A DNA stretch of 62,711 nt. Origin: Bifidobacterium breve (GTDB lineage Bacteria; Actinomycetota; Acidimicrobiia; Acidimicrobiales; Ilumatobacteraceae). Positions 13,562 to 28,737 of the stretch are shown piece after piece. Location of the stretch: the NCBI GenBank assembly GCA_945901725.1, contig CAMDLK010000004.1, forward strand, positions 1 through 62,711, written 5' to 3'. The notes beneath the pieces were generated by a model. That model did not search any database and had not been told where the DNA came from. It saw only the letters and a program-made list of their open reading frames with translations. The number at the start of each line of letters is the position of its first letter. The stretch's first letter is position 1. A program made the translations under genes and the position numbers.

Positions 13562-13663
13562 AACTAGAGCCTAGTTGTTTCGTGAACACAGAACCGGCCG
13601 ACGCTTAGGGAATGGACCCAAACAACCTTGATCTAAGCTGCGACCATGCTGAATGACTCGGTA

Positions 13664-13873
13664 TCAGTTGTTCTCCCTTGGCATCATGCCGAGACCATAG
13701 CAATAGCCACAGGTTTCATGATGATCTCCCAACAGGCCAGTCATTGAGCCTGCCCCTCCGCAGTATCCACACGGTTCGAACTCATCCCGGTCATCGTCAT
13801 CATCGAAGTCGTCCTGGTCGTCGTCTTCGTCCTCGAAATCCTCGTCGAATTCATCATCTTCGTAGTCGCTCAT
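13664..13873 (-). CDS. Small acidic protein with CxxCxGxG zinc-type motifs
   Basis: 69 residues in two parts. Residues 1-32 are almost entirely Asp and Glu; residues 33-69 carry CGYCGGAG and CGYCYGLG, two CxxCxGxG repeats as in the DnaJ cysteine-rich zinc domain, separated by 15 residues. One zinc site built from the four Cys is likely. A polyacidic tail with a minimal DnaJ-type zinc site suggests a partner-binding or chaperone-like role, but this is inference. The gene stands alone between the TPR gene and the anchored-protein gene pair. Confidence 0.7.
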   Translation of the reverse strand: MSDYEDDEFDEDFEDEDDDQDDFDDDDDRDEFEPCGYCGGAGSMTGLLGDHHETCGYCYGLGMMPRENN

Positions 13874-13903
13874 GACAAAAAATGTAGCAGAGGATTTGAA
13901 TGC

Positions 13904-14791
13904 CTATTGGCCGGAAATTCTCGAGATGGTGTGATTCACGATGGCTAAATGTTCTGCGACCTGATCATCGCCCAATGCCTGCTGCGCCCGTAGCCGGCGT
14001 CGGACCGCTTTGAGGGTGGGAAGAGCCACTTCACCAAAGGCATGGGTGAATTTCAATTCTGTCTCACGCCAGGTTGCAAGGGCTTCCTTTAGGTCACCAT
14101 TTCTCTCGAACATCGCCGCAATGTGCCACCAGATGTCAATGGTATTGGGGTGTTCTGATCCGAATTCGTTGGTGTATTCGACTAAGAGATCGAGAAGATC
14201 TTGCTCGTTGTTATCGCGTCGTGCTCGCACGACCGTGAGATTGTATTTGCTACTGCGAGTCCGTGAATCGTGTTCACCAAATGCTTCTTTCCGTTTCTCG
14301 TATTGGGAAGACACCAGTGAAATGGCCTTGTTTAGGTAGCCCGCGTCACAGTGCAAGCTCGCCAAATGACCGAGAGAATTCAGTGTTCCATTATCAAGCT
14401 CGCCAAACACAGCGACTCGCTTCTCGTAGGTCGACGTTGCGAGACGTAGAGCATCTTCTATTCGTCCGGCGCCGCCCAGGGCACGACATAAATTGCCGGC
14501 GCATGAAAAGGTATCTCTGTTCTCCCAGCCCAGCGTGCGAATGGCATCTTCTAACGCTGCCTCGAGAATAGTTACTGCTCTTGCATGAATATCACTGCGC
14601 CACAGCGCCCTGCCAAGGTACATGCGTAACTGGATGACAATTTGATCGTCTGCTGCGCACTGTTCAGAAGCTAGCGAGAGGAGATCCTCGAGTAACTGGA
14701 CTGCGCGCTCTGGGTGGGGGCCATCAACAATTTGGATCGCTTCTTCAAAACGGTTGTTGAATTCTTGTGTAGACATTGACTGATTACGCAT
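13904..14791 (-). CDS. Tetratricopeptide repeat protein
   Basis: 295 residues from the ATG at 14791, selected by the Shine-Dalgarno GGAGAGG six bases upstream; a longer frame from 14815 lacks one. Repeats are of the kinesin-light-chain type (TPR_10/TPR_12): A-L-x-L-A-x-x-x-Y-E-K-R with FGExD or LGWENRDTF turns, about five or six units. Such proteins are scaffolds. It follows the deacetylase-like and 120-residue genes on the same strand but has its own promoter region with a 26-bp motif shared with the phosphatase gene at 16328, suggesting joint control. Confidence 0.8.
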   Translation of the reverse strand: MRNQSMSTQEFNNRFEEAIQIVDGPHPERAVQLLEDLLSLASEQCAADDQIVIQLRMYLGRALWRSDIHARAVTILEAALEDAIRTLGWENRDTFSCAGNLCRALGGAGRIEDALRLATSTYEKRVAVFGELDNGTLNSLGHLASLHCDAGYLNKAISLVSSQYEKRKEAFGEHDSRTRSSKYNLTVVRARRDNNEQDLLDLLVEYTNEFGSEHPNTIDIWWHIAAMFERNGDLKEALATWRETELKFTHAFGEVALPTLKAVRRRLRAQQALGDDQVAEHLAIVNHTISRISGQ

Positions 14792-14833
14792 AATGGACCT
14801 CTCCGAGATGCTCACGGCCTGAGCACTTCTGTA

Positions 14834-14859
14834 TGGGTATAAAGTACCTTAAGGGTGTG
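14834..14859 (-). promoter_or_regulatory. Shared promoter motif, copy 1 (before TPR gene)
   Basis: Read on the minus strand, this 26-bp block has CACACCCTT, then GGTA, TTT and TACCCA. It matches the block at 16226-16251 at 22 of 26 positions in the same orientation toward its gene. GGTA and TACC form an inverted half-site pair around TTT. It ends 43 bp before the TPR start codon. A common regulator or sigma factor is inferred. Confidence 0.55.
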
Positions 14860-14873
14860 TCACGAGGTTCTGT

Positions 14874-15236
14874 TTATTTCTTTTGCTGCGTCATGACTAA
14901 CCAGTGTTCTCGTTTCTGTGTCAAAAAATCTGCGATCCTTTCCGAGTTCTCGTCACTAATCTGACCCGGACCGAAGAATTGTTCGAAGACCTTTTTCACG
15001 TTCTTACGCGAGATGGTGTTCGTCGTGAGGAGAACGAGAAGATCTGGTACTTCAGGGAGATATTCATGAGGTGCGATACGTCCACTAACGATCCTGACCG
15101 GGTCAAGTCGGTCAAGATAATCGTCGAGAACCACTGCTAACCATGCGTGCTCGGGGATGCAACAGTATCTGTTGTCTGAGGTGTTGCTTTTCTTTTTCTT
15201 ACCCATAGTTCTGTGGAATTTCTCTTTCTTACTCAT
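14874..15236 (-). CDS. Hypothetical protein, 120 residues
   Basis: Not recognised. A lysine-rich N-terminus (MSKKEKFHRTMGKKKK) is followed by a mostly helical region with two adjacent Cys (RYCCIPEHAW). Its ATG is 5 bp after the stop of the deacetylase-like gene, and AAGG lies within the end of that gene, so the two are almost certainly co-translated. No membrane segment or signal peptide is seen. It may be a partner or nucleic-acid-binding accessory of the deacetylase, which is inference from position only. Confidence 0.6.
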   Translation of the reverse strand: MSKKEKFHRTMGKKKKSNTSDNRYCCIPEHAWLAVVLDDYLDRLDPVRIVSGRIAPHEYLPEVPDLLVLLTTNTISRKNVKKVFEQFFGPGQISDENSERIADFLTQKREHWLVMTQQKK

Positions 15237-15240
15237 ATTG

Positions 15241-16140
15241 CTATTGACCTTTCTTAGAGTCTGTTTTTACGTTTTGTGCCCATGTGTTCAGGGTCATACG
15301 GTGCCATGCAGTGATGTCTTCGTATGTTTGGCCGCCCCAGGTGTATCCGCCGGCAAGGGCGAAGATCGCTGGAGTATCCCCGATGAACTCACGTACTGCG
15401 CGCTCGCGGTAACTGATCACTTCTTCTGTGACTCCATCATTGATGGGGTCCATTCCGCCGTTGTAGATGACAAAGTCAAATGGCTTGAGAGTCTTTGCGT
15501 ACTCGATGGCCTCACGAATTGATTGACGGTAATCCTCAACATCGGAATACATGAGAATGCTTTCGCCTGTAGGAGTCCACGAATCAAACCGGGATGTAGT
15601 GACATCAATCTGTACAACGTTGTCTGGCATGGTTCGCTGAATAATGTTCCAGGTTCCTCCGCCCGAGTGGGCATCGAAGTCCAGAACAAGAACTCTGGTT
15701 GCATTGAACGCGGTTACTGCGTACAAGGCAGCTGCCGCAAGTCCGTTGAACGTGCAAAATCCACAACCTCTTCCGTAACTCGCATGATGCAACCCGGAAG
15801 ACAAACTGCCTGATGTGCAGTTGTTGGTGAGTGCCTCGTAAGTTGCCGCAATGAGACCGGTGGTGTGTGAAACGGCCATTGGGAATAGACCTGGACCCCA
15901 AGTGAAACCTTGTGAAGTTGCAAGATGACGCGGTTCACCCGTACGAACGGCATTCACATAGATCTGGTCATGAATCAAGTTGATGTATTCGGTTGCGAGT
16001 GCCGTGAACTGAACTGGATCAACTAGTTCGAGTCCACGGATGGGGTCAACCAGAATGTCTTCTGCGATGTGCTTCGCCTTTTGGGTGGTCTCAGACCGGT
16101 GTTCTGACCCGACGTATGTGCAGTTGTAATAGATATTCAT
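15241..16140 (-). CDS. Histone-deacetylase-like amidohydrolase
   Basis: About 299 residues from the ATG at 16140 (MNIYYNCTYVGSEHR), the position where family members begin; an in-frame ATG at 16182 is an alternative. It has the arginase/deacetylase fold. The active-site His pair is in SGLHHASYGRGCGFCTFNG, zinc ligands are in LDFDAHSGGGT (Asp and His) and GGMDPINDG (Asp), and the catalytic Tyr is in LAGGYTWGG. All key residues are present. Bacterial members remove acetyl groups from lysines, polyamines or small amides; the substrate is unknown. It is followed by the 120-residue gene and is divergent from a dual-specificity phosphatase. Confidence 0.85.
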   Translation of the reverse strand: MNIYYNCTYVGSEHRSETTQKAKHIAEDILVDPIRGLELVDPVQFTALATEYINLIHDQIYVNAVRTGEPRHLATSQGFTWGPGLFPMAVSHTTGLIAATYEALTNNCTSGSLSSGLHHASYGRGCGFCTFNGLAAAALYAVTAFNATRVLVLDFDAHSGGGTWNIIQRTMPDNVVQIDVTTSRFDSWTPTGESILMYSDVEDYRQSIREAIEYAKTLKPFDFVIYNGGMDPINDGVTEEVISYRERAVREFIGDTPAIFALAGGYTWGGQTYEDITAWHRMTLNTWAQNVKTDSKKGQ

Positions 16141-16225
16141 TGTGTTGGTTGTTCTTTCTTGTGTGGGAGATGTGTTTGTCATTGGCTCGATCTGGATATA
16201 GGTATGTTCTACCAGAAAGGTGCGT

Positions 16226-16251
16226 CACACCCTTTTGGTAATTTGTACCCA
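16226..16251 (+). promoter_or_regulatory. Shared promoter motif, copy 2 (before phosphatase gene)
   Basis: The plus-strand block contains CACACCCTT, GGTA, TTT and TACCCA and matches 14834-14859 at 22 of 26 positions. It lies in the divergent region between the deacetylase-like gene and the phosphatase, 77 bp before the phosphatase ATG. Its left part overlaps an imperfect inverted repeat ACCAGAAAGGTG (16211-16222) / CACCCTTTTGGT (16228-16239), which could serve both directions. Confidence 0.55.
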
Positions 16252-16327
16252 AATAGAGATGGCCGACAGAAATTGGTCTCTTTAGTTGGTTCAGCACAGG
16301 GTTGAGCCACTATCCGAAAGGTGTCCC

Positions 16328-16963
16328 ATGTCCACACAATCTTCTTCCCTTAAGCGTCCGGTACGTCCCGAAAATCCATATGCAATGTGGCGGCAGATCT
16401 GTCAGGTGTCTGAATCACTTGCAGTCAGTGGTGATCTTCCTTCTAATCGAGTTCAAGCTCTCGAGCAATTGCGTCTTTGGGAAGCAGCGGGAATCACAGA
16501 CGTCTTCGACATGCGCGAAGAAGCGAACGACACAGAGTTCATTTGCAAGAACTCAACGGTCAATGGCCATTGGTTTGGTGTTGATGATGATGGTGGAAAA
16601 CGTGATGATGCATGGTTTCAAATTTTGTGCGATGCAGCGCGTGTCATTTTGAATGACACCACGCGTCCGCGGCGCATCCTGGTGCATTGTCACATGGGCG
16701 TGAACCGTGGACCTTCCGCGTTGTTTGCGATCATGTTGGCAACCGGTTGGGGCTCTCTTGATGCGTTGCGCGCTATTCGTGATGCGCGACCTATTTCGGG
16801 AATCATCTATGCACCTGACGCGATCAACTGGTGGGCACGTGAACAGGGTCATGACTCAGATGTTGTTGCCGACATGGTGGATGAGGTTGAGGCATGGTTG
16901 GATCGCAACCCACTTGATCTGTACTACGTGATTCGTTCAATCGGCAATAGAAGGGCGATCTAA
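16328..16963 (+). CDS. Dual-specificity / tyrosine phosphatase-like protein
   Basis: 211 residues from the ATG at 16328, preceded by GAAAGG. The phosphate-binding loop HCHMGVNRGPS fits the HCxxGxxR signature of Cys-based phosphatases, and a general-acid Asp is likely in VDDDGGKRDDAW. The N-terminal third (VSESLAVSGDLPSN, then LRLWEAAGITDVFDMR) is typical of the DSP fold. It is cytosolic. It is divergent from the deacetylase-like gene and followed after 9 bp by a Cys-rich small protein. Its promoter shares a motif with the TPR gene. A second, unrelated phosphatase domain occurs in the fusion at 27301-28737. Confidence 0.82.
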   Translation: MSTQSSSLKRPVRPENPYAMWRQICQVSESLAVSGDLPSNRVQALEQLRLWEAAGITDVFDMREEANDTEFICKNSTVNGHWFGVDDDGGKRDDAWFQILCDAARVILNDTTRPRRILVHCHMGVNRGPSALFAIMLATGWGSLDALRAIRDARPISGIIYAPDAINWWAREQGHDSDVVADMVDEVEAWLDRNPLDLYYVIRSIGNRRAI

Positions 16964-16972
16964 GGTTTCACC

Positions 16973-17158
16973 ATGGGTTTAGGAATGTATTTGTACTTTC
17001 GTCACCGGGCCAAGGTCCAGCGGCGAAAGTACGAACAGCAATTTGATGAACTGAATGAACGCACAAGTGGGTCGCCGTTCTGTTGTGAGTGCTGTGATTA
17101 CTGCGGCGATTGCACACTGGATGACTTATGTGTTTCCTGCCATGGCGACTACATATAG
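16973..17158 (+). CDS. Small Cys-rich protein, 61 residues
   Basis: It begins MGLGMYLYFRHRAKVQRRKY, followed by a charged helix and a C-terminal cluster of seven Cys within about 20 residues (FCCECCDYCGDC and CVSCHG), so zinc or another metal is probably bound. The Shine-Dalgarno AAGG lies 7 bp before the ATG. The start is 9 bp after the phosphatase stop, suggesting an operon. No family is recognised. The stretch from 17159 to 17335 holds only GC-rich sequence with no clear promoter. Confidence 0.55.
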   Translation: MGLGMYLYFRHRAKVQRRKYEQQFDELNERTSGSPFCCECCDYCGDCTLDDLCVSCHGDYI

Positions 17159-17335
17159 ATATAGAGGTGTTGAATTGGCCCTCTGAGACCATTCCGTAAT
17201 GCAACTTCCCGCGCGCGTGCATCACGGGCACGTGCGCCAGCGCGCGAGGACATTTCTTTTCCGCCAGTTGCAGCAAGGGTTTGCGAGGGGTCGAGGAGGG
17301 GATTTTGACAGGGGGTGGGTGTAGAGATTCCGGCC

Positions 17336-19699
17336 ATGGAAAAAAACACCCACACCAAATTGTTCATCGTTGAGTCACCTATCAAAGTAAAAACCATAGA
17401 AAAGTTTTTGGGCGGTGATTACATCATTCGTGCTTCGGTAGGTCATATTGCAGACATTCCGGAACGTGACGGCACGGTAGATGTCAGTAATGCATTTGCA
17501 GCTACCTATGTACTTACGCCGAAGGGTGCTGAGATAATCAGCCAATTGAAAAAGGACATGAAGCTGTGCAGTGAGATCATCATTGCAACAGACGCAGATA
17601 GAGAAGGTGAACTGATTGCAGCACACCTAGTTGAGTTCTTGAAGCCAAAGGTTCCTGTGAAGCGCATTGATTTTCATGCGGTCACTAAAGACGCCATCGA
17701 GGCAGCCATGCTGACGCCACGTGAGATTGACTACAACTTGGTTGAGGCTGCACGTACTAGGCGCGTCCTTGATCGCTTGTTTGGCTTTGAGGTGTCTGGG
17801 GTTACTCGCCAAAAGGTTCGTGGCAATACCACTGCCGGCAGAGTGCAAAGCCCAGCATTGCGTTTGGTGGTGGAACGAGAGCTTGAGCGGTTGGCTCATG
17901 TGAGTGCCATATATATGGACGTAGTGGTGAACAGTGAGACCGCACCATCGTTTCGTGCCACGTTGACAGAAGTAGCGGGCAAGAAGATTGCAACGGGTGC
18001 AGACTTTGATGCATCAGGTGCATTGATAAATGACGTGGCAGTGGTTGATGCGGCAACGGCGCAGCACATAGCTGAGGTGTTGAGTGCTCCGGCTGCCACG
18101 TTGGCGGTGCAAGACATTGCGGAGAAGGCAGCGACGCGTCAGCCACAGCCACCGTTTGTGTTGAGCAGTCTGTATCAAGAGGCAGGGAACAGGTTGGGTA
18201 TGAGCGTTGCTGAAGCACGCACTATCAGCCAGCAGTTGTTTGACAGTGGCCTGATTACATACCCCCGTACAGATAATCCAGTGCATGATGTGGGAAGCAG
18301 GCATGACATTCGCAATGCAATAGCTACAGAGTTTGGTGCTGACATGGTTGCGCCGTTTCACCGGTATGCATCTCACAAGGGCAAACACACTCAAGGTGCA
18401 CACGAAGCAATTCGTCCGACAAAGATGTCGGTGCAGTCGCCGAATGGGCTGAGCCCGCGTCAGGCTGCGATGTATCGCATGATTTGGCAACGCACCATGG
18501 CAAGCCAGATGGTGGAAGCAAAGGGTTCCACTGTGACCGTGCGTTTAGTTGGCGGAGACTCTGGCAGTGAATGGATCTTTTCTGCCTCTGGCACCACCTA
18601 CACACAGCAAGGCTTTCGTGTTGTGTATGCACCAAGCAATGAAGAAGACGATGCAGGGTCTCCGTTTCCGGCGCTTGCGTTAGGTGATTCGGTACCCATT
18701 CGTGATGCAGAAGCAAAGGAGCACCACACATTGCCACCTGCTCGTTTCACAGAGGCATCATTGGTGAAGGAACTGGAACGCCTAGATATTGGTCGCCCGT
18801 CTACGTATGCGTCGATCATTGCGAAGTTGCGTGACAGGTATGTATGGAGCAAGAAAGGTGAGAGGGCGTTGATTCCCACCATTACGTCGTTTGCAGTGCA
18901 TCGGTTGTTGATGGGCAGCTTTGCCTCGTTGCTTGATTACGAATTCACCAGGGGCATGGAAGACCAGCTCGACTTGGTGTCACAAGATGCTTCGTTGAAG
19001 ACAGCCACCTTGTCGGACTTCTTCTTTGGTGATGGGGCAGACAACCCTGGGTTGCAGACCTTGGTGTCTGATGCCATTGACAATGTGGAAGGGCGCGACA
19101 TGTTTGCATTGACGCTTGGCACTCACCCAGAAACCGGAGAAGTGATCACGGTGCGAGCAGGGAAGTTGTTTAAGAAGTCCTTCAGCCCGTATGTGGAATG
19201 TGGATTACTGAAGAAAGCGTTGCCAGACGAAACTGCATTCGATGAGTTCACCACTGAGAAGTTGTTGGCACTGCTGTCTGCCAGTGGGCCACAGTTGCTG
19301 GGTGAGTACTTAGGAGCACCGGTGTTCTTGCGGGTGGGCGCCAACGGCACGTTCTTTCAGCACGGAGAGAAAGGCTCGTTGCCAGAAGGGGCAACCAAGC
19401 CCCGAACCGCTGGATTGTTGAAATCAATGAACCCTGACACACCCTCTCTGCAAGATGCCATCCAGATGTTGGAGTTGCCTCGTGTTGTTGGTGTTGATGC
19501 CACCACAGGGGAAATCATCCACGGCCTGTATGGCAAGTTCGGGGCATACCTGCAACGTGGGGATGACACCCGTTCTCTGAAAGATGAAGAGCGTTTGTTC
19601 ACCATTACTAGCGAGGAAGCTATTGAGATTCTGAACACACCAAAGAAGCCGCGCCGTGCGCCAGGCAAAAAGTCGACCACCACCAAGAGGAAGAAATAA
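17336..19699 (+). CDS. topA: DNA topoisomerase I (type IA)
   Basis: 787 residues from the ATG at 17336 (MEKNTHTKLFIVESP); an upstream GTG at 17315 adds residues outside homology. The TOPRIM domain has FIVESPIKVKTIEKFLG and ATDADREGELIAAH. The catalytic Tyr is in GLITYPRTDN. The later domain has LERLDIGRPSTYASIIAKLRDR. C-terminal repeats and a lysine-rich tail (KKPRRAPGKKSTTTKRKK) replace zinc fingers, as in actinobacterial TopA, though the protein is shorter than the usual 900 or so residues. It relaxes negative supercoils. The YbjN-like gene starts 3 bp after it. Confidence 0.92.
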   Translation: MEKNTHTKLFIVESPIKVKTIEKFLGGDYIIRASVGHIADIPERDGTVDVSNAFAATYVLTPKGAEIISQLKKDMKLCSEIIIATDADREGELIAAHLVEFLKPKVPVKRIDFHAVTKDAIEAAMLTPREIDYNLVEAARTRRVLDRLFGFEVSGVTRQKVRGNTTAGRVQSPALRLVVERELERLAHVSAIYMDVVVNSETAPSFRATLTEVAGKKIATGADFDASGALINDVAVVDAATAQHIAEVLSAPAATLAVQDIAEKAATRQPQPPFVLSSLYQEAGNRLGMSVAEARTISQQLFDSGLITYPRTDNPVHDVGSRHDIRNAIATEFGADMVAPFHRYASHKGKHTQGAHEAIRPTKMSVQSPNGLSPRQAAMYRMIWQRTMASQMVEAKGSTVTVRLVGGDSGSEWIFSASGTTYTQQGFRVVYAPSNEEDDAGSPFPALALGDSVPIRDAEAKEHHTLPPARFTEASLVKELERLDIGRPSTYASIIAKLRDRYVWSKKGERALIPTITSFAVHRLLMGSFASLLDYEFTRGMEDQLDLVSQDASLKTATLSDFFFGDGADNPGLQTLVSDAIDNVEGRDMFALTLGTHPETGEVITVRAGKLFKKSFSPYVECGLLKKALPDETAFDEFTTEKLLALLSASGPQLLGEYLGAPVFLRVGANGTFFQHGEKGSLPEGATKPRTAGLLKSMNPDTPSLQDAIQMLELPRVVGVDATTGEIIHGLYGKFGAYLQRGDDTRSLKDEERLFTITSEEAIEILNTPKKPRRAPGKKSTTTKRKK

Positions 19700-19701
19700 C
19701 C

Positions 19702-20163
19702 ATGATAAAAACAGAGATAACCGCAGACGAGATTGTGTCGCTTTTGCACAGCCTGGGCTACCGGGCCTCATATGAACTAAACGACATCAACTTGATCGTA
19801 AGTTCTGCATCACAAGGCTTTGAATGGTACATACACATCAGTGTCACTGAGGAAAGTGAGGCATCGGATTTTCTGATCTTTTCTCACACACGGCTTGTCA
19901 GTCCGGTGCTCTTTCCTGTTGGCAAGATTTGCAACCAGTTCAACATAATCAGTCCCAACGGGGTTGCTACCTTCCGGATGGATGACAATCATGATCTCAC
20001 TGAAGATGTGATGATCTCGTTGGATTTCTCTGTGTCATTGACTGGGGGAGTCGCAGATGAATGGCTTGAGGATTCAGTCTCCATGTGGGATTACATCCTG
20101 GGGACTTTCGACAAGACAGTTCGCGAATGTGAAGAACCCGCTGCAACGGACGACCCGTTCTAG
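19702..20163 (+). CDS. YbjN-domain protein
   Basis: 153 residues. The pattern FNIISPNGVATFRMDD, then a mid-region rich in aliphatics and DFSVSLTGGVADEWLEDSV, matches the YbjN family (a type III secretion chaperone-like fold). Members act as pleiotropic regulators or protein-stabilising factors, and the exact role is unclear. It begins 3 bp after topA and is probably co-transcribed. The acidic C-terminus ends EEPAATDDPF. The 134 bp that follow show no gene. Confidence 0.6.
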   Translation: MIKTEITADEIVSLLHSLGYRASYELNDINLIVSSASQGFEWYIHISVTEESEASDFLIFSHTRLVSPVLFPVGKICNQFNIISPNGVATFRMDDNHDLTEDVMISLDFSVSLTGGVADEWLEDSVSMWDYILGTFDKTVRECEEPAATDDPF

Positions 20164-20297
20164 CGGCGATTACTTTGTGGTGAAGAATCTTCTCTTCATT
20201 CGAAAGATGAACGCCAAGATTGCATCCACTTGGTCGGCGGGGCATAGAGCATTTCCCGCTAGGAATAATCTGTACGGAGAGGTGCTATAAATAGCCA

Positions 20298-21092
20298 ATG
20301 AAAATTGCCACATGGAACCTAAAGCAGGCAGTCGCACCAAAGAAACCTTTACCGGTTCTTTGGAAATATGCTGAAGAAAAAATCGAAGCAGATGTCGTTG
20401 TCTTTACGGAGGCGAAAGTCCCTAAAGAAGGTGTTCCTGCCGGATGGACTGCAGTTTGGAAACCTGACGGCATCGGTGAACGTCGTCGATGGGGAACAGT
20501 AATTGCGGCTCGTAACGGCTATGAGCTGGTGGACGTTACCAATGGAGTTTCAGGGCGAGGCGGATTTTCCATTACACATACTTGGCCAGGCACAGTGGTG
20601 ATTACTGATGTCGTCAAGGATGGCGAGTGTGTCGCAACTGTTGTTGGCTTGTACGGAATCACTATGGATCTGAAGGGAAATTCCATTGGATCAGGCTTGA
20701 TCGCAGTTCCTTCTATTCTGGTGAGCCTTGAGGAGTTGTACACGTCTAGCCGAGGAGTGAAACTCATCATTGCTGGCGACTTCAACTTGTGGCCAGTTGA
20801 TATGCCTGATTTTCTCTGTGAAAGCTTCATTGATGTAGTTGGAGCAACTGCTGAATTGCGTGGTCCATTGGCAGGATGTTCGGGTTGCGATGTGGTGCCT
20901 GAAGAGTGTGGCCATATGTGGACACATAAAAATGGAAATAGTCCCAACGCTGCAGTGCAGAACCTGGACTACATCTTTATCTCGGGGCACTTCGCAGAAT
21001 TAGTTGTTGATGTCTACGGCGGTGTTGGTGATTTTCCCGATGCATGGGACATGAGCGACCATGCTCCAGTGGTTCTAGAGTTAGAGACCTAG
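20298..21092 (+). CDS. Endonuclease/exonuclease/phosphatase (EEP) family hydrolase
   Basis: 264 residues. EEP motifs in order are ATWNLKQA (Asn), FTEAK (metal-binding Glu), AGDFNLWP (Asp and Asn) and MSDHAPVVL (Asp-His). Family members cut DNA, RNA or phosphodiesters of small molecules. No signal peptide is seen, so it acts in the cytosol. It sits between topA-ybjN and the McrBC module; a nuclease role in defence is possible but not supported by anything beyond position. Confidence 0.8.
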   Translation: MKIATWNLKQAVAPKKPLPVLWKYAEEKIEADVVVFTEAKVPKEGVPAGWTAVWKPDGIGERRRWGTVIAARNGYELVDVTNGVSGRGGFSITHTWPGTVVITDVVKDGECVATVVGLYGITMDLKGNSIGSGLIAVPSILVSLEELYTSSRGVKLIIAGDFNLWPVDMPDFLCESFIDVVGATAELRGPLAGCSGCDVVPEECGHMWTHKNGNSPNAAVQNLDYIFISGHFAELVVDVYGGVGDFPDAWDMSDHAPVVLELET

Positions 21093-21115
21093 ATGGTTTT
21101 CTCAGGAAATGTACG

Positions 21116-21295
21116 ATGAGTGAAGTAGCGGCTCCCAATTGGTTCGTTTCGATCGCAGAATTAGGCCGTGCTTCAGCGTCGGAGATGAATTCAAAAGTTG
21201 GAGAGTCCTACCCAGTGACTGTCCTGTCAGTACCAATTGACCGCGCACTTTTGCACGGTAGTTCTGGTCACGGAATCGTTGGTTTCTTCAGATAA
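21116..21295 (+). CDS. Possible small protein, 59 residues
   Basis: The ATG at 21116 has AGGAAA six bases upstream and opens a frame starting MSEVAAPNWFVSIAEL and ending HGIVGFFR. No family is recognised. It could be a real small gene, a remnant of a longer one, or chance. It lies just upstream of the folP fragment in a region that looks rearranged. Confidence 0.3.
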   Translation: MSEVAAPNWFVSIAELGRASASEMNSKVGESYPVTVLSVPIDRALLHGSSGHGIVGFFR

Positions 21296-21314
21296 AGATC
21301 AAGTAGCACAGATT

Positions 21315-21490
21315 ATTGCGAACTAGCCCCCAAAGTGCCCCTCAGGCGTTCACGTGGTGGCCTACCCGTAATTGCACCAATGGAGTCTTTACGAGACAAA
21401 GTGAAGATCACCGGCCTACGGAAATACAAAAGCTTCGAGACATGGCCCAAAACGTTCACGGTCTGAGCAAGATCGAAGACAAGTAGGCTC
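21315..21490 (-). pseudogene. folP: Decayed folP (dihydropteroate synthase) fragment
   Basis: On the minus strand this stretch translates in one frame to a segment closely matching the functional FolP at 11585-12478. Aligned blocks include AQTVNVLGHVSKLL, then FRRPVIF, SRKDSIGAITGRPPRERL and GTLGA. I count about 38 of 48 identical residues, with DNA similarity obvious by eye (compare 11759-11905). The match ends in SSQ and a stop; there is no start and the rest of the gene is missing. It lies immediately upstream of mcrB (ATG 21497) and may mark a recombination junction of the defence module. Confidence 0.85.
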
Positions 21491-21496
21491 AGAGCT

Positions 21497-24301
21497 ATGG
21501 GTTACAGGGATGTCACTAGCCAAGACGCTGTTGTTGAAGCAATTAGAGAATTTGACACCTTTTCTGAACCTCAAGATTTTCTCAGTCTCTACGGCTTTGG
21601 AGTGGCTCAGATCTATGTGTTGCGATATGAAGGACGGAGTTATCCGCCTAAGGCGATACTCGGTGTTGCACACAAGTTTCAGTTTCCCGAGGTGGGGCAT
21701 TTGAAGAACTCAGATTTTTCTGGTGGTGAGGCCGGGGCGAATAAAGTTCTGCGTGGTTTGGGATTCGTGATCGAACAACAGTCTCTTGTGGATGAGAAGA
21801 ATGAGTTGTTCACTCAGATTAAGAAAATCTCACGTGGAAACGTTACCTCATACGGAAAGGCCCCTCATAAGCCATTGCTCTTGTTGCTTGCGGTACAAAA
21901 ACTTGCAAGGGGTGAGCAACGTCTCCTCGCCATTGACGACTGGACTCACGCGCTTCAGCCACTTTTGGATTCCGTCCTCCCCGATAGAGAAACGTCACCT
22001 CTTCAGCCCATATGGAAACTTGAATCTGCATTGTGGACAGTTGAATTGGATGGCGAAGAAGTTAGACAATCAGATTCAGTTGAAGTTGACGTCACACTAT
22101 TGAATCAAACCGGAGTTGTCGCTGGATTTACTGAACAAATTTCTTCGATTATTGCTCGCGTGAATTGTTTCGAAGAAATTGTGGAATTCATAATTTCAGA
22201 GTTTCTGTCAGAGATTCATGAAGATTTGAAGCAATACTTGAGAAACTTGAATGTTTCAAGCGGAATATGGTGGGTCAATCAGGGGACCACTTATGAGGAC
22301 GCTAAGAACTCTGGGCATGTCTGGGCTCCGTTGGTTCAAAAAAATGGAATTCCTGCTTCACACCATGCGATTCTCGAAGAATTGCGAGTGGGCGACATAG
22401 TTATCCATTACGCCAAAGGTGAGGTCCGAGCCTTGGGACAAGTGTTGAGTGAGGCTGACGTAACTTCGCGACCATTTCGTCATCCTGAGAAGGGTTGGGA
22501 AGGCGAAGGTCGTCAGGTATCTGTGCACTACTTCGAACTTGCTGAATCAATTTCATTAAATGAGATCAAAAGGAGACCCTCTGGGATTGGACCTTTTAAC
22601 AAAAATGGTGAAGTTAACCAGGGTTACATGTACCGACTTCCGATTACTTGGGCGCTCGATTGTAAAAATCAGTTTCAAGGGCGGTGGCCAGCGAACAGCC
22701 CCTGGGGGAAGGAAGGTCTTATGGATCAATTCAGCAGTCGCCTGACTGAGCTAGCCAGATGGTTGCTGGCGTTTCGTCAAATTGAAGAGTTTGAATCTAG
22801 AGAAATAGATTTCAAGATTGAGTTAAGTCAGCAACTACATAATGCTCTAACTTCACTTGACTTCTCTTCGTCAGCTTGGATCGATTCTTTGCTTAACGTG
22901 CTCTCTAGAAAAAATAACTTAATTGATTTTCGAGTCAGGGCGGGATTCAGGAGTCAATGCGAGTCCGATCCAGTCAGTGCAGCAACACTGCTAACGCAAT
23001 TGATTGACCAGACGAATGACCTATCTGACTGGATAGACGCCTTTTCGAACTGGAATACCGCAAATTCTGGCCACGGCACGAAGCTCTCACTTGTATCGGT
23101 ATTGACTTCTGCCTTCGATGTTTATGACAGTCCAGCGATAAATCACTCGTCTACCAAGAGAGTTCATGAACTCATTGGACGACATCATTCCCAGGGGAGT
23201 GCGTCTGAGCGTTATTTTGAGTATCTCGCGTTGATGGATGAGTTAATGGAGATCTGTTCCGGAATATGCCTCGAGAATGAGCAGGGAATAGAAAACCGTC
23301 TTGAGATGCAAGCTGCAATATGGCTACTTATTGCGGGGGTACCACATGTTTCATGGAATCACGAAACACAAACCAAATACTTAACTTTTATGGGTGGAGA
23401 GAATATGTCAAATGAATTGCAGGAACTGGCGGAAGATCTATCACTGAATGTCTTATTCCTTCAAGAGATACAAGAACTGCTTGAAGACAAAAGACAAGTC
23501 ATTTTCTATGGTCCGCCAGGTGCAGGAAAGACGTACGTTGCGTTAAAGATGGCGGAATCACTGAGTGATAAATCTGAAGATTCAGCAGCAGTAGAAATAG
23601 TTCAATTTCACCCTTCTTACGCATACGAGGATTTCGTCGAGGGATTTCGACCAACGGAGGAAGGGAGTTTTATCCTCAAAGAAGGAAAATTGCTCTCACT
23701 AGCACGAAGGGCGATGGCGAATCCTGGGCAGAAATTCTTTCTGATTATTGATGAAATAAACAGAGGAAACATCGCCAAGATTTTTGGTGAGATGTATTTC
23801 CTGTTGGAGTATCGAGATAGAAGCATTCAGCTTCAATATTCAGATTCAGATTTTCGGATGCCTACTAATCTCTATTTCATCGGGACAATGAACTCGGCAG
23901 ATCGCTCAATTGGACTAATTGATACAGCCCTTCGTCGACGTTTTCATTTTGTATCTTTCTATCCGACCCAAGATGAGATGAAAGATGTTCTTCGTAACTG
24001 GCTCGAGAAAAATGCGCCAGAAGTCAAATGGGTCGCTGATTTGGTCGACGACGCCAATCGGATGTTGAACAATCCGGATTTTGCTATTGGGCCGAGCCAT
24101 TTCATGAAACCAAATCTTGACGAGGCACTTGTGAGAAAGATTTGGCGTAGGTCAATAATTCCATATGTTGAGGACGTGTTCTTTAACCGGAAGGAAGAAG
24201 TCAGCAAATATGACTTAGATCGCGTTCGTACACTGAAGCGTCTTGCTCCCGAGATAGCAGCCGAAGAACTCGAAGAAGATGACAACGCCGCTTCTGCTTA
24301 A
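21497..24301 (+). CDS. mcrB: McrB-like restriction AAA+ motor with putative sulfur-binding and EVE domains
   Basis: 934 residues. Residues 1-95 resemble the ScoMcrA-type head (YGFG, SYPPKAILGVAH, DFSGGEAG, LRGLGF). Residues about 100-250 resemble the phosphorothioate sulfur-binding domain (HKPLLLLLAVQKLARG, later PIWKLESALWTV). Residues about 257-390 look like an EVE/PUA-type modified-base reader (GIWWVNQGTTYEDAKNSG, VWAPL, VGDIVIHYAKG). A helical linker (400-650) precedes the McrB motor: Walker A GPPGAGKT (672-679), Walker B FFLIIDEINRGN and the McrB-specific MNSADRSIGLIDTALRRRF. Rare codons (AGA, ATA, AGG) and AT-rich sequence suggest transfer. McrC overlaps its 3' end by 23 bp. The motor is certain; the two readers need profile confirmation. 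Confidence 0.85.
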   Translation: MGYRDVTSQDAVVEAIREFDTFSEPQDFLSLYGFGVAQIYVLRYEGRSYPPKAILGVAHKFQFPEVGHLKNSDFSGGEAGANKVLRGLGFVIEQQSLVDEKNELFTQIKKISRGNVTSYGKAPHKPLLLLLAVQKLARGEQRLLAIDDWTHALQPLLDSVLPDRETSPLQPIWKLESALWTVELDGEEVRQSDSVEVDVTLLNQTGVVAGFTEQISSIIARVNCFEEIVEFIISEFLSEIHEDLKQYLRNLNVSSGIWWVNQGTTYEDAKNSGHVWAPLVQKNGIPASHHAILEELRVGDIVIHYAKGEVRALGQVLSEADVTSRPFRHPEKGWEGEGRQVSVHYFELAESISLNEIKRRPSGIGPFNKNGEVNQGYMYRLPITWALDCKNQFQGRWPANSPWGKEGLMDQFSSRLTELARWLLAFRQIEEFESREIDFKIELSQQLHNALTSLDFSSSAWIDSLLNVLSRKNNLIDFRVRAGFRSQCESDPVSAATLLTQLIDQTNDLSDWIDAFSNWNTANSGHGTKLSLVSVLTSAFDVYDSPAINHSSTKRVHELIGRHHSQGSASERYFEYLALMDELMEICSGICLENEQGIENRLEMQAAIWLLIAGVPHVSWNHETQTKYLTFMGGENMSNELQELAEDLSLNVLFLQEIQELLEDKRQVIFYGPPGAGKTYVALKMAESLSDKSEDSAAVEIVQFHPSYAYEDFVEGFRPTEEGSFILKEGKLLSLARRAMANPGQKFFLIIDEINRGNIAKIFGEMYFLLEYRDRSIQLQYSDSDFRMPTNLYFIGTMNSADRSIGLIDTALRRRFHFVSFYPTQDEMKDVLRNWLEKNAPEVKWVADLVDDANRMLNNPDFAIGPSHFMKPNLDEALVRKIWRRSIIPYVEDVFFNRKEEVSKYDLDRVRTLKRLAPEIAAEELEEDDNAASA

Positions 24302-25502
24302 GGAATGGTCGCCAAAGAATATTCGCGACCTGACCGAGGAACAGACTAGAGACCTTCTCGGAATAAAGGGGATGAAGGTTGAGGTATGCCCAGATGGTTC
24401 GGTCAATGTTCGGTCAACCGAGAACATAGTCGGTTACCTTCGACGCGGGAAAACATCCGTCATTATCAGCCCATCAAAATGTAATGCATCGCACGTTCTT
24501 TTCATGATGGGATACGCGGAGAATCCACGAATGTTTCAAGATGGGCAAGTCGAGTTCGCTGACGACAGCAATTTGCTTGAGGCTTTCGTTACGGTCTTCG
24601 TACGCTCGGCCACAAAGGCAATCGAACGAGGAATGTTTCGTTCCTACACTGCCGTTGAAGACGATTTGACAGTGGTTCGTGGTCGAATACGTATGGGGGA
24701 GCAAATGTCTCGCCGATTCAGATTGTCTCCACCAATTGCTCTCTCATTTGATGAATTCACGGTTGACAATCAAGAGAATCGCCTCATCCGAAGCGCAATT
24801 GAATTTGCTTCAAAGATGCCAATTAGAAACCCGGAGACGACTAGAGGTATTCAATTCTTGCGAGCAATGTTTAGTGACGTCTCGATTGTTGAATTTGATC
24901 GTTCGTGGCTTCCACAACCAAATTGGAATCGTCTAAATGAACATCTGGAGTATGCCGTCAGTCTGGCGCGGCGCATTATTCAGAATTCATCGATTTCGCT
25001 AGAACATGGAGATTCAAGTTCTGACGAGTTCATAATCAATATGGCAAATGTATTCGAGGATTTTGTGGTGACCGCAATTAGGGAGCACTTGAAGTTGTCA
25101 AGGTCCGAAATGCCTAGGGCAAATGAAATTCACCCGCAGTTGTATCTCGATGAAGGACAGCTCGTTCGGCTTAAGCCTGATATCTCTCGTTGGGAGGGCA
25201 GTCGTTGCGTAGCAATAGGCGATGTGAAATACAAGCCCATCGCGGATGCCGGAGTTATTCACGCTGATATCTATCAACTTCTGGCATACGCGGTAGCAAA
25301 TGATTTACCCGAGGCGAGTTTGATTTATGCAATGCCAAAGAGTGAACAAGTAGGACTGAAACTGCTAAACACACACAAAATAGCCGGGGCTGATGCACGT
25401 ATTAATGTTTTCGCTCTTGATTTAACTACATCTCCAGGTGATGTACTTCGACAAATCGCCGAATTTTCAAAATCATTTGAACCTCGGTTGAGCAAAGTTT
25501 AA
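24279..25502 (+). CDS. mcrC: McrC-like restriction nuclease subunit
   Basis: 407 residues. The C-terminal PD-(D/E)xK nuclease core is visible as LKPDISRWEG, then AIGDVKYK and HADIYQLLAYA. The N-terminal half matches the McrC region that docks on the McrB ring. The ATG lies 23 bp inside mcrB, so the two are translationally coupled. McrC stimulates the McrB NTPase and cuts DNA after translocation. The stop is 5 bp from the convergent amidohydrolase gene. It shares the AT-rich composition of mcrB, unlike its neighbours. Confidence 0.9.
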   Translation: MTTPLLLKEWSPKNIRDLTEEQTRDLLGIKGMKVEVCPDGSVNVRSTENIVGYLRRGKTSVIISPSKCNASHVLFMMGYAENPRMFQDGQVEFADDSNLLEAFVTVFVRSATKAIERGMFRSYTAVEDDLTVVRGRIRMGEQMSRRFRLSPPIALSFDEFTVDNQENRLIRSAIEFASKMPIRNPETTRGIQFLRAMFSDVSIVEFDRSWLPQPNWNRLNEHLEYAVSLARRIIQNSSISLEHGDSSSDEFIINMANVFEDFVVTAIREHLKLSRSEMPRANEIHPQLYLDEGQLVRLKPDISRWEGSRCVAIGDVKYKPIADAGVIHADIYQLLAYAVANDLPEASLIYAMPKSEQVGLKLLNTHKIAGADARINVFALDLTTSPGDVLRQIAEFSKSFEPRLSKV

Positions 25503-25507
25503 GTGAC

Positions 25508-27253
25508 CTAGCGCCTACCGCGTAGCAATTTGCCGGGGAGTTCACCGGTGAATTCATCACGAGAGACGATTTGGGTGCCGTTGACGAATGTTGCTTCGTA
25601 GCCCTTGGCGTGTTGTACGAGGCGGCGGCCGTTGGCGGGGAAGTCATAAGCCATTGAAGGCATGTCGAAGTTGAGAGATTCATAATCAATCAAGTTCATG
25701 TCGGCGCGTAGACCAGGTGCAATGAGACCGCGGTCAGTAAGGCCATACATGGTTGCTGTTTGGTGTGTTTGGCGGTGCACCATGTGTTCGAGTTGCAAGC
25801 GAGGGCCACGGGCACGGTCGCGCACCCAGTGAGTGAGCAAGAAAGTGGGCATGCCGCCATCGCAGATGGCGCCGCAGTGTGCGCCGGCGTCGGATAAACC
25901 GTTGCGGGTGTGTGGGTGTTGCAACAACTCATGTGTCATTGACAAGTCACCATAGGAATAGTTGAAGAACGGCATGTAGATCATGCCTGTGCCGTTGTTG
26001 GCAAGCAGTTGGTCATACACCATGTCCATGGGAACAATGCGTTGCTTGGCAGCGAGGGCATCAATGGAATCGGTCTTTGGGTTTGGTTCGTAATTGATGT
26101 TGGCGTCTGTCACGGGGAACATCTTCCAGAGACGTGAGAGAACGATGTGTTCAAAGAAGCCATTGTCGCGAGGTACTTCATTGACGAACTTGTTGCGCAA
26201 TGTTGCGTCTTTGAGTGCTTTAACTTTTTGGTCGTGAGGCAAGTGTGCGATCTCTTGCCATGCAGGGTGGAAGGCAAGTGGGTGGAAGCTTCCTTCGAGG
26301 CACATGAGAACACCAATGGAACGGCCGGCTACTTGGGCAACGATATTGAGGCCGTCTTGTTGAGCTGCGTCTAGTTGGGTAAGGACTGTCTTCCATACGT
26401 CTGGCGCTGCATCGTCTTGGTTGAGGTTCACACTGACTGTGACGTTCGGGAAACTGCCGGCGAGTTCACGCATCCACGGCCATTCATCGACAGGGAGAAT
26501 CTTGTGTTCAGGTGCGAACTGAAAGATGCCGCCAGTTTTAGCGAGGCCTTGTGCAATGCCGAAGAGTTCGTTTTGTTCTGCGTGGGTGCCAGGAATGACG
26601 TCGCCCGCTTTTGTTTTGTGAATAGGGGTGCGGCTGGTGGAAAAACCAAGAGCGCCGGCAGCCATTGCTTCAGCAACCATTTGTGACATAGAGGCAATGT
26701 CGGCATCGGATGCCTGTTCGTTAGACGCACCGCGTTCACCCATGACATAGGCGCGTAGGGGACTGTGGCCGATTTGTGTGCCGATGTCGATGACGCGCGG
26801 TTGAGCATCAAGAGTGTCTAAGTATTCAGGAAACGAACGCCAACCCCATGTGAGACCTTCTGTCATTGCTGAACCAGGAATGTCTTCGACTGATTCCATT
26901 AACTCGATCAGCCATTCGTGGCGATCTTCATGCGCAGGTGCAAACCCAACACCACAGTTACCCATGACAACAGTGGTGGCACCGTGCCAACTGCTTGGTG
27001 TGAGCCAAGGGTCCCATGTTGCTTGCGCGTCGTAGTGGGTGTGAATGTCTACCCAGCCAGGAGTAAGTAAAAGACCATCAGCGTCGATGATGCGGTGTGC
27101 GTGAGCTGTTGGTGCTTTGCCGGCTGGCGAGACTTCGCGGATGATGCCATCTTCAAACATGACGTCAGCATTTGTCTGCGGTGCACCACTGCCGTCGACC
27201 AGTTGTGCGTTACGAATGACGGTTTTCTTGCCGGTCTGCTCGGTGAGGCTCAT
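25508..27253 (-). CDS. Amidohydrolase, N-acyl-D-amino-acid deacylase family
   Basis: 581 residues. The metal-dependent amidohydrolase signature is WVDIHTHYDAQATWDPWLTP, followed by TTVVMGNCGVGFAP, EHKI and NGLSDAGAHCG, typical of the D-aminoacylase / amidohydrolase 3 family. These enzymes hydrolyse N-acyl-D-amino acids or related cyclic amides. No signal peptide is seen. It stands 47 bp downstream of the ADP-ribosylglycohydrolase-phosphatase gene on the same strand. The substrate is undetermined. Confidence 0.85.
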   Translation of the reverse strand: MSLTEQTGKKTVIRNAQLVDGSGAPQTNADVMFEDGIIREVSPAGKAPTAHAHRIIDADGLLLTPGWVDIHTHYDAQATWDPWLTPSSWHGATTVVMGNCGVGFAPAHEDRHEWLIELMESVEDIPGSAMTEGLTWGWRSFPEYLDTLDAQPRVIDIGTQIGHSPLRAYVMGERGASNEQASDADIASMSQMVAEAMAAGALGFSTSRTPIHKTKAGDVIPGTHAEQNELFGIAQGLAKTGGIFQFAPEHKILPVDEWPWMRELAGSFPNVTVSVNLNQDDAAPDVWKTVLTQLDAAQQDGLNIVAQVAGRSIGVLMCLEGSFHPLAFHPAWQEIAHLPHDQKVKALKDATLRNKFVNEVPRDNGFFEHIVLSRLWKMFPVTDANINYEPNPKTDSIDALAAKQRIVPMDMVYDQLLANNGTGMIYMPFFNYSYGDLSMTHELLQHPHTRNGLSDAGAHCGAICDGGMPTFLLTHWVRDRARGPRLQLEHMVHRQTHQTATMYGLTDRGLIAPGLRADMNLIDYESLNFDMPSMAYDFPANGRRLVQHAKGYEATFVNGTQIVSRDEFTGELPGKLLRGRR

Positions 27254-27300: not shown

Positions 27301-28737
27301 CTAGCTCTGCCACTCGTCGTCGAGGAAGTTGGTGAAATCTTCAGTCCAGGTTGCGTAATGAGGCCAAATGCCTTCAACCCAGTCGTGAGCAGCGTCGTGA
27401 TCAACATTCTCGTGGCGCATGTACCAGGCCTTGAGAATGAGGCCAGTGCGGCTGCGTCCACCGTGACAGTGAATGAGAACCTCACGGCCTTCGCGAAGGA
27501 ACGCATCGATTGAGTCAACAGCATCTTTCACGATTGAGTTCAGATGAGTATTACGAGCATCTTTATCGATGAGGTAGAACTCGCGTCGATAGGGAAGATG
27601 TTCTAAACGTCCGTATGTGCGGCACAGTGAAATGACGCCTATGTTGGAATCTGCACTTGGTGCGCCGGTCATGTTGCTTGCAAAGATTCCGGCATCGTGC
27701 AACATGGTGGGCTTGATGACGGATTCAAGTGGGGTCTCACGTTTTGGCGGGAGACCAAGTAGTCGGTGCGCTGTATCGAGCAATGTGCCGATGGTGTACT
27801 TCTTGATAGTTCCATCTGGTTGGCGCACACTGCCGTTGACATACGTGGTCCAACGAGAAGGGATCTGCTGGATTCCGTAGAGCGCGCCGCCAATTGCACC
27901 AGTAACGGCCGCAACGGTGTCGGCATCGTCGCCGAGGTTTACTGCAGTAGTGACAGCTTCTTCAAATGATGACGTTGTGCGAACACACCAGATTGCTTGT
28001 GCGATACATGTCCATACTGAACCGTTGCCGTGGTAACCAAGAAGTGTTGGGTTCCATTGATCACTCAACATGTCGGCGTAGATGTCGTGCTGTGGACCGC
28101 TCACAATGTCAAGAATGTCGACAAATGAGTCATCGAATGAGCCAGAGATGATGATGCGACGAATGAGTTCAGCAACAATGGCCGCACCGTACGATGCGCC
28201 TTCTTCATAGTGAGTGAGATCAGACTGTTGACGTGCAATCTTTGCTGTCCTCGGGGCACCCCATCGAACGCCGGCAATAGCGATTGGCACGATGCGCATG
28301 ACGGAGCCATTACCTGCTGACTGGCCGAGGTAAGCGTGTGCTTCTTCTGCTGCAGTCATGTAGTCAGAGTGGCTCAGTGAAACACGAGTGGTGTTTCCAA
28401 TGTCGCGTGCAGTTTCTGCCCACGCTTTGAAGTGATTCCATGTTGTCTCTGGATCAAACTTTCCATCGACAAGTGATTCAGCAAGAGCGAGAGCCATTTG
28501 TGTGTCATCAGTGAATTCACCTGGCGCCCAATTGAAACTGCCACCACCAATAAGTTCTCCTGTGCCGCTGACAACAGGAGTAGGGAAGGTGCGCAAGTAT
28601 GTGCCGGGCTCATCAAACTCAAATGGAGCGCCGAGTGCATCGCCAACTGCGGTTCCAACTAACGCGCCGAGAATGGCATGCAGTTGACGTCGGGTGAGGT
28701 TTCGGGGATCGAGTGGTTCTTTTGTTATCTGTGTCAT
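27301..28737 (-). CDS. ADP-ribosylglycohydrolase fused to dual-specificity phosphatase
   Basis: 478 residues with two enzymes. Residues 1 to about 335 are an ADP-ribosylglycohydrolase: GALVGTAVGDALGAPFE, the metal site FTDDTQMALALAESL, NGSVMRI and GDDADTVAAVTGAIGGALYG. Residues about 345-478 are a Cys-based phosphatase with IHCHGGRSRTG. The first removes ADP-ribose from proteins or nucleic acids; the second could act on a phosphoprotein or on ADP-ribose 1''-phosphate-like products. The fusion suggests processing of one doubly modified substrate. All key residues appear intact. The start ATG at 28737 is preceded by GGAGG. Confidence 0.88.
   Translation of the reverse strand: MTQITKEPLDPRNLTRRQLHAILGALVGTAVGDALGAPFEFDEPGTYLRTFPTPVVSGTGELIGGGSFNWAPGEFTDDTQMALALAESLVDGKFDPETTWNHFKAWAETARDIGNTTRVSLSHSDYMTAAEEAHAYLGQSAGNGSVMRIVPIAIAGVRWGAPRTAKIARQQSDLTHYEEGASYGAAIVAELIRRIIISGSFDDSFVDILDIVSGPQHDIYADMLSDQWNPTLLGYHGNGSVWTCIAQAIWCVRTTSSFEEAVTTAVNLGDDADTVAAVTGAIGGALYGIQQIPSRWTTYVNGSVRQPDGTIKKYTIGTLLDTAHRLLGLPPKRETPLESVIKPTMLHDAGIFASNMTGAPSADSNIGVISLCRTYGRLEHLPYRREFYLIDKDARNTHLNSIVKDAVDSIDAFLREGREVLIHCHGGRSRTGLILKAWYMRHENVDHDAAHDWVEGIWPHYATWTEDFTNFLDDEWQS

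Follow-up and report, generated by a model that had tools for sequence, protein, structure and literature searches.

The stretch of DNA analysed here (the window) consists of 62,711 nucleotides of contig CAMDLK010000004.1 from assembly GCA_945901725.1, deposited as Bifidobacterium breve and placed by GTDB in the Ilumatobacteraceae, and it encodes a predicted McrBC-type restriction system. The mcrB-like and mcrC-like genes lie on the plus strand and overlap by 23 bp, with exactly the coordinates and protein length given in an earlier note on this DNA. The mcrB gene is a single frame of 934 codons without interruption, and its product combines a head domain as found in ScoMcrA (Sco4631) of Streptomyces coelicolor, a sulfur-binding domain (SBD), an EVE domain, a helical domain and an AAA+ GTPase motor (Table 1). 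This is the layout of ScoMcrA with an EVE domain in the place of SRA, and with the helical domain and the McrB motor in the place of the HNH nuclease.

Table 1. Features of the mcrBC locus and its surroundings, in window positions; residue numbers are those of the encoded proteins
Feature	Position	Strand	Basis and details
mcrB-like gene	21497..24301	+	ATG start, 934 aa; head-SBD-EVE-helical-AAA+ GTPase motor; list of open reading frames, family and structure matches
ScoMcrA-type head domain, residues ~1-97	21497..21787	+	phmmer 5zmm; head-only relatives L063, L064, L066
SBD, residues ~98-247	21788..22237	+	NF045808, 5zmm, Foldseek, window-free profile; pocket H124, K125, Q170, P171, K174
EVE (PUA-superfamily) domain, residues ~252-410	22250..22726	+	6yex, Foldseek, profile; pocket T265, A269, W276, P278, W334, Q375, Y377
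Conserved helical domain, residues ~421-633	22757..23395	+	common to other McrBs; profile 81.3 bits
AAA+ GTPase motor, residues ~641-914	23417..24238	+	6hz4 match plus motifs
mcrC-like gene	24279..25502	+	ATG start, 407 aa; PF10117 6.6e-52; structure match 6ut5_G; PD-(D/E)xK core D301, D315, K317
Insert of ~11.9 kb holding mcrBC	13578..25507	.	relative to congener G017 (L081), in which the order is unbroken; left edge exact only to within some bases
folP fragment, 145 bp, directly upstream of mcrB	21324..21468	-	77% identical to resident folP 11746-11890, same orientation

Residues 641–856 of McrB match the E. coli McrB structure 6hz4 (E 1.2e-42), and all motor motifs are present, i.e. Walker A (GPPGAGKT, at 672), Walker B (FFLIIDEINR, at 747) and the NxxD-type signature MNSADR (at 798). 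The PD-(D/E)xK core of McrC is kept as well (PD...DVK, at 300–317). Motor and nuclease core had both been described as intact, which these matches bear out, and to judge from the motifs the two proteins have the anatomy of an McrBC Type IV restriction system. A family scan of McrB found no HNH family, the C-terminus being formed by the McrB motor instead. A reading as a CoCoNuT, or as an RNA-targeting system, was discarded, as the NxxD-type signature and the PD-(D/E)xK core are intact here whereas CoCoNuT GTPases carry NxD (PMC11090510); the abbreviation 'SBD' in that paper denotes the substrate-binding domain of Hsp70. In a motor tree the nearest motors showed no head, SBD or EVE domain, but with a support of 0.21 at the window's node and many of these loci cut upstream, the tree was not used.

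For the N-terminal region, phmmer aligned McrB residues 10–211 with ScoMcrA residues 10–207 (5zmm; E 6.5e-14), and as this one alignment spans both domains, head and SBD come jointly and in the ScoMcrA order. The NCBIfam model NF045808, 'phosphorothioated DNA-binding restriction endonuclease', matches residues 107–247 (E 5.1e-15), albeit only over model positions 6–149 of 284 and with 55.3 bits, which is under the whole-protein cut-off of 180 bits, presumably because the HNH half is missing. Profiles were in addition made without the window sequence from 23 SBD, 16 EVE and 6 helical-domain relatives, the SBD and EVE rows being aligned separately; 12 of the 23 SBD relatives are mutually similar proteins from viral contigs. 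The SBD profile gives McrB 59.6 bits, against 4.0 bits for the best of 500 shuffles, and a chance match of head and SBD is excluded by such window-free profiles and shuffles. The predicted fold of head and SBD, modelled from 13 sequences with a mean predicted local distance difference test (pLDDT) of 63, has SBD/ScoMcrA chains as all of its top 13 Foldseek matches (best E 7.9e-05). The ScoMcrA-like head and the SBD proposed in the earlier note are thus found by sequence alignment and predicted fold, and the SBD by family model and profile as well.

The sulfur pocket of ScoMcrA is made up of H116, R117, Y164, P165 and A168. Binding is abolished in the variants R117A, R117G and P165N; R117K is neutral and keeps binding, A168R causes no substantial loss and Y164M binds more strongly (PMC6224610). 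In the alignment these five residues correspond to H124, K125, Q170, P171 and K174 of McrB, and the His, the Arg/Lys and the Pro are all kept, with low model confidence around P171. The 23 SBD relatives have His at position 124 in 21 cases, Lys at 125 in 22, Pro at 171 in all 23 and Arg at 174 in 20. By this alignment, the core of the sulfur pocket is retained and its lid, at Q170, is unusual.

The EVE domain is of the type of the EVE-HNH enzyme VcaM4I (6yex), which matches residues 257–384 with an E-value of 1.6e-10 and also heads the Foldseek search with the predicted EVE fold (1.2e-13; model from 8 sequences, mean pLDDT 82), followed by further EVE and YTH domains. The EVE profile scores 122.9 bits for McrB and 2.4 bits for the best of 500 shuffles, and the EVE/PUA-like block that had been read from the sequence is confirmed. 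EVE and SRA domains are members of a single superfamily, each of them flipping the modified base; in VcaM4I the flipped base is held between P24, W82 and Y130, with contacts from T11 and E15 and with Q128 as a wedge (PMC7897488). The residues T11, W22, P24, W82, Q128 and Y130 are kept in the alignment as T265, W276, P278, W334, Q375 and Y377.

What the earlier note had called a helical linker is rather a conserved domain common to other McrBs, for which the window-free profile gives 81.3 bits for McrB and 8.8 bits for the best of 500 shuffles. It occurs together with an EVE domain in the loci L070 and L071, and with a close motor in L112 and L113. In the McrB-like proteins of L070 and L071 the helical domain precedes the EVE domain, opposite to the order in the window McrB, and these blocks are thus shuffled. 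The two genomes concerned (G413 and G323) were considered as carriers of the same system and rejected, as their proteins have the order helical-EVE-AAA, no SBD match and a distant motor.

The reading that we favour, by a modest preference, is that of a Type IV McrBC system in which McrB, equipped with a ScoMcrA-like reader cassette, would restrict incoming DNA via the SBD (recognizing Rp-phosphorothioate) and the EVE domain (recognizing a modified base). Sequence and predicted fold establish the domain content only; for each step of the action, E. coli McrBC and ScoMcrA serve as the model. The SBD would bind Rp-phosphorothioated DNA, and the EVE domain would flip out a base that carries a modification, most likely on cytosine. 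The McrB hexamer would be loaded by binding of either kind, McrC would stimulate GTP hydrolysis, and the complex would translocate until McrC cuts, possibly at a distance from the mark. More tentatively, we propose a phosphorothioate-triggered, GTP-driven translocating machine, in which SBD and EVE domain would be alternative loading sites of one hexamer, and in which either mark, or one of each at distant sites, would lead to the McrC cut.

E. coli McrBC requires two distant methylated sites, which counts in favour of a coincidence detector, i.e. an AND gate in which cleavage would depend on the two marks together, or on two sites with one mark each. The presence of both readers on one chain of a hexamerising motor (PMC6344862) points in the same direction. 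However, ScoMcrA, with the same order of readers, cuts phosphorothioated DNA and Dcm-methylated DNA on either mark alone (PMC3009677), which makes an OR gate the likelier arrangement, and DNA carrying both marks would presumably be rare. We consider such a coincidence detector very unlikely.

Several points weigh against the favoured reading of McrB as a two-mark reader on a McrBC motor. That the system uses GTP, translocates and cleaves is an assumption based on E. coli McrBC. The lid residue Q170 is atypical, since the 23 SBD relatives have Met (13), Tyr (8), Phe (1) or Asp (1) at this position and Gln in none; Y164Q is absent from the main text of PMC6224610, which gives Tyr at the lid position for just 7 of 23 homologues. 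The base-contact loop SRGRR of ScoMcrA is not kept in McrB, which bears on the sequence context of the sulfur mark. Moreover, while eleven of the fifteen 10-residue blocks of residues 101–250 have a model pLDDT of 73–85, the four low ones, 111–120 (48), 161–170 (57), 171–180 (60) and 191–200 (54), include the two at the lid (161–170 and 171–180), and the head stays below 63 throughout; the pocket assignment rests on sequence, not on geometry. As to the EVE domain, the Pfam EVE model matches weakly, with an E-value of 0.095 (13.1 bits, under its 23-bit cut-off), and A269 replaces Glu15 of VcaM4I, which contacts the cytosine N4 and is Glu in 14 of the 16 EVE relatives. To these points are added the missing second example and the silent dndC and dndD controls described below. 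The inspection of pocket residues suggested in the earlier note has therefore a mixed outcome: the sulfur-pocket His, Lys and Pro and most of the EVE cage are in place, the lid and the Glu15 position are not. Because Q170 and A269 are atypical, the exact ligands may differ from those of the relatives.

The lid and the non-conserved base-contact loop also fit the main rival explanation, an ordinary EVE-McrBC, in which the EVE domain would be the sole working reader, and head and SBD would have lost sulfur recognition and now be general DNA-binding or assembly elements. EVE-McrB is indeed the commonest EVE architecture among defence systems, occurring in nearly 300 genera (PMC7641849). However, H124, K125 and P171 are kept, and changing their equivalents in ScoMcrA abolishes or strongly cuts phosphorothioate binding (PMC6224610); in addition, K174 aligns with Arg in 20 of the 23 relatives, and one would expect the pocket to decay in an SBD that is of no use. 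This explanation is in our view unlikely, albeit the strongest of the rivals.

The next rival takes the substitution at position 269 as its starting point, and supposes a phosphorothioate-directed McrBC with the SBD as the real reader, the EVE domain, having lost its selectivity for a modified cytosine, now giving generic DNA affinity or reading another base. Ala at this position occurs in none of the 16 EVE relatives, and E15A was one of two first-round alanine variants that clearly impaired VcaM4I on 5-hydroxymethylcytosine DNA in vitro (PMC7897488). The remaining cage (T265, W276, P278, W334, Q375 and Y377) is intact, however, the neighbouring E267 or D268 might make this contact in place of Glu15, and the EVE domain of VcaM4I is described as highly tolerant of single alanine exchanges (PMC7897488). 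We regard a drifted EVE domain of this kind as distinctly improbable.

A second head-SBD-EVE-McrB protein, for which the earlier note had suggested a genome search, was not found among 61 relatives, 395 genomes of the class and 396 genomes of the phylum; these sets overlap, each counts the window's own genome, and the class set was queried both with the motor and with the N-terminal half. This solitary occurrence could also suggest a chimeric or misassembled open reading frame, its N-terminal half stemming from another gene through an assembly error in the 112-contig draft. We think this most improbable, given that the frame is unbroken, that the helical joiner is known from other loci both with an EVE domain and with a close motor, and that the G+C content of all domains (42.8–48.2%; head 47.1, SBD 43.3, EVE 48.2, helical 43.5 and motor 42.8%) lies under the 51.7% of the window, as does that of mcrC (45.9%).

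With the SBD profile, 24 of 376 genomes of the phylum set had one match each, the window's own included, and 14 matches were found in 13 of 326 genomes from the phylum of a Prevotella record. Among the 37 other SBD matches of both surveys (702 genomes), 34 share their frame with an HNH domain, as read from the DNA, and none is joined to an McrB motor, nor was such a motor seen in their 36 stretches of 2.0–6.0 kb, which bears out the earlier note in placing SBDs mainly on HNH enzymes; the first pass of the survey scored part of the candidates in many genomes, and weak SBDs may be missed. The three matches without HNH are a 145-residue SBD-only frame (G113), a partial match at a contig edge (G575) and a weak partial match split over frames (G545). 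A 702-residue frame in G634 was examined as a second SBD-McrB and rejected, since its SBD is followed by HNH and it has no motor. No SBD-McrB was detected in the plasmids, phages or viral contigs searched, metagenomes being outside the scope. An SBD-only query gave two weak matches in plasmids (E 0.3), a whole-McrB query retrieved just two motor relatives from genome contigs, and the viral contigs contained one motor relative, 13 SBD loci, 7 EVE loci and no helical-domain matches. Ten of these 20 viral SBD and EVE loci were scanned with Pfam, with HNH_2 found in nine, and no family at all in EVE protein L100.

The congener G026 has a gene for a separate SBD-HNH protein about 300 residues in length (L077:4003-4911), which implies that SBDs are already present in the genus. 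The ScoMcrA head also stands alone, in frames of about 110 residues (L063, L064, L066, L108 and L114), at least two of which lie near mcrB genes; the one in L108 shares its stretch with mcrB and mcrC genes. On a Microvirga plasmid an unannotated head match immediately precedes a DUF3578 McrB-like gene, and short head matches make up 26 of the best 40 of 716 plasmid records, mostly enterobacterial, one of them between IS26 copies.

Genes for the two marks were searched for in the host's own assembly (87% complete). The statement in the earlier note that no dnd genes are present holds for dndC and dndD, neither of which was found; none of the 14 control genomes exceeded the cut-off either (0/14), so that the sensitivity of this search is unproven, and Ssp and BREX-4 were not searched by name. 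A C5-cytosine methylase (PF00145) was likewise not found in this assembly, with 10 of 14 control genomes over the cut-off. With no dndC, dndD or C5-methylase gene in the host assembly, both marks would label foreign DNA.

Compared with known systems, the closest resemblance in reader order is to ScoMcrA (head-SBD-SRA-HNH; PMC6224610), which has the same head and SBD followed by a base reader of the PUA superfamily, and restricts two marks by one chain. It differs in having an HNH nuclease that needs no accessory proteins, an SRA domain and the SRGRR loop, where the window system has an McrB motor with McrC, an EVE domain and no such loop. The EVE-McrB (EVE-McrBC) systems, well described in the 2020 survey by Bell, Wolf and Koonin, share the McrB motor bearing an EVE reader, but neither 'SBD' nor 'ScoMcrA' appears in the main text of that survey (PMC7641849). 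VcaM4I has the same type of EVE domain with most cage residues in common, but an HNH effector, no SBD, and Glu15 where the window McrB has Ala. The McrBC systems of Escherichia coli K-12 and Thermococcus gammatolerans are alike in their architecture of motor plus nuclease and in the NxxD-type signature, but their readers are different, namely DUF3578/ADAM for 5-methylcytosine or YTH for N6-methyladenine (PMC11090510, PMC7641849). The SBD-HNH enzymes SprMcrA and EcoWI (PMC7461809) have a homologous SBD, but are single-chain HNH enzymes without a motor; most of the relatives detected are frames of about 280–425 residues. In PMC10853773 the SBD is treated as a winged helix-turn-helix domain, and an SBD-SRA-HNH protein is suspected of also reading base modifications; 'McrB' is absent from the main text of that paper. 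The main text of an McrBC census (PMC11090510) contains neither 'phosphorothio' nor 'sulfur', and an SBD on McrB was not described in any paper that we found, the literature searched being largely without subscription papers. Two-mark restriction by one enzyme is not new, as ScoMcrA has it; new are the McrB motor and the EVE partner. The window system combines its parts in a new way but remains of a known kind, with a well supported anatomy and a function that is inferred.

Both in this analysis and in the literature covered, phosphorothioate readers of the SBD family belong mainly to HNH enzymes that cut close to the mark. Placed on an McrBC motor that translocates, the same reader could act far from the mark, and a second reader on the chain could tune it. 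If the favoured reading is true, the set of systems restricting sulfur-marked DNA would be wider, and the two-mark reader cassette of ScoMcrA would be a portable module exchanged between unrelated effectors. The window McrB would then also be a natural protein in which to measure directly how a reader of the backbone and a reader of bases cooperate.

The mcrBC genes lie within an insert. In the congener G017 an amidohydrolase gene, orthologous to that at 25508–27253 in the window, is followed by a short stretch, a gene for a secreted protein and folP, the counterparts of which lie at about 13.6–11.6 kb in the window; as this order is uninterrupted in G017, the window carries an insert of about 11.9 kb (Table 1). 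In G031, too, the secreted-protein gene comes directly after the amidohydrolase gene. The same site is occupied in the congener G003 by the genes for a HaeIII-like endonuclease and a methylase of the C5-cytosine type, and in G016 by an HNH gene; mcrBC hence sits where close relatives carry restriction genes of other kinds. The methylase of G003 suggests that this congener marks its own DNA with 5-methylcytosine. The junction between amidohydrolase, secreted protein and folP is a variable site within the genus (L080, L081, L083 and L084). The folP fragment directly upstream of mcrB is possibly a scar of the acquisition, as if from recombination with a relative's copy of the locus. A nuclease-like gene further upstream (20298–21092) was considered as a third component of the system and rejected, as it has a general endonuclease/exonuclease/phosphatase match only, and is separated from mcrB by the folP fragment.

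Beyond the amidohydrolase gene, and before an IMPase-like gene, positions 27301–28737 encode an ADP-ribosylglycohydrolase fused to a dual-specificity-phosphatase-like domain, for which tblastn gave no match in eight congener stretches, several of them short. The insert itself also contains a gene of the histone deacetylase family (15241–16182), a dual-specificity-phosphatase-like gene whose match is under its Pfam cut-off (16286–16963) and a topoisomerase IA gene (17315–19699), and this cargo of deacetylase, phosphatase and topoisomerase is an odd mix for a defence insert.

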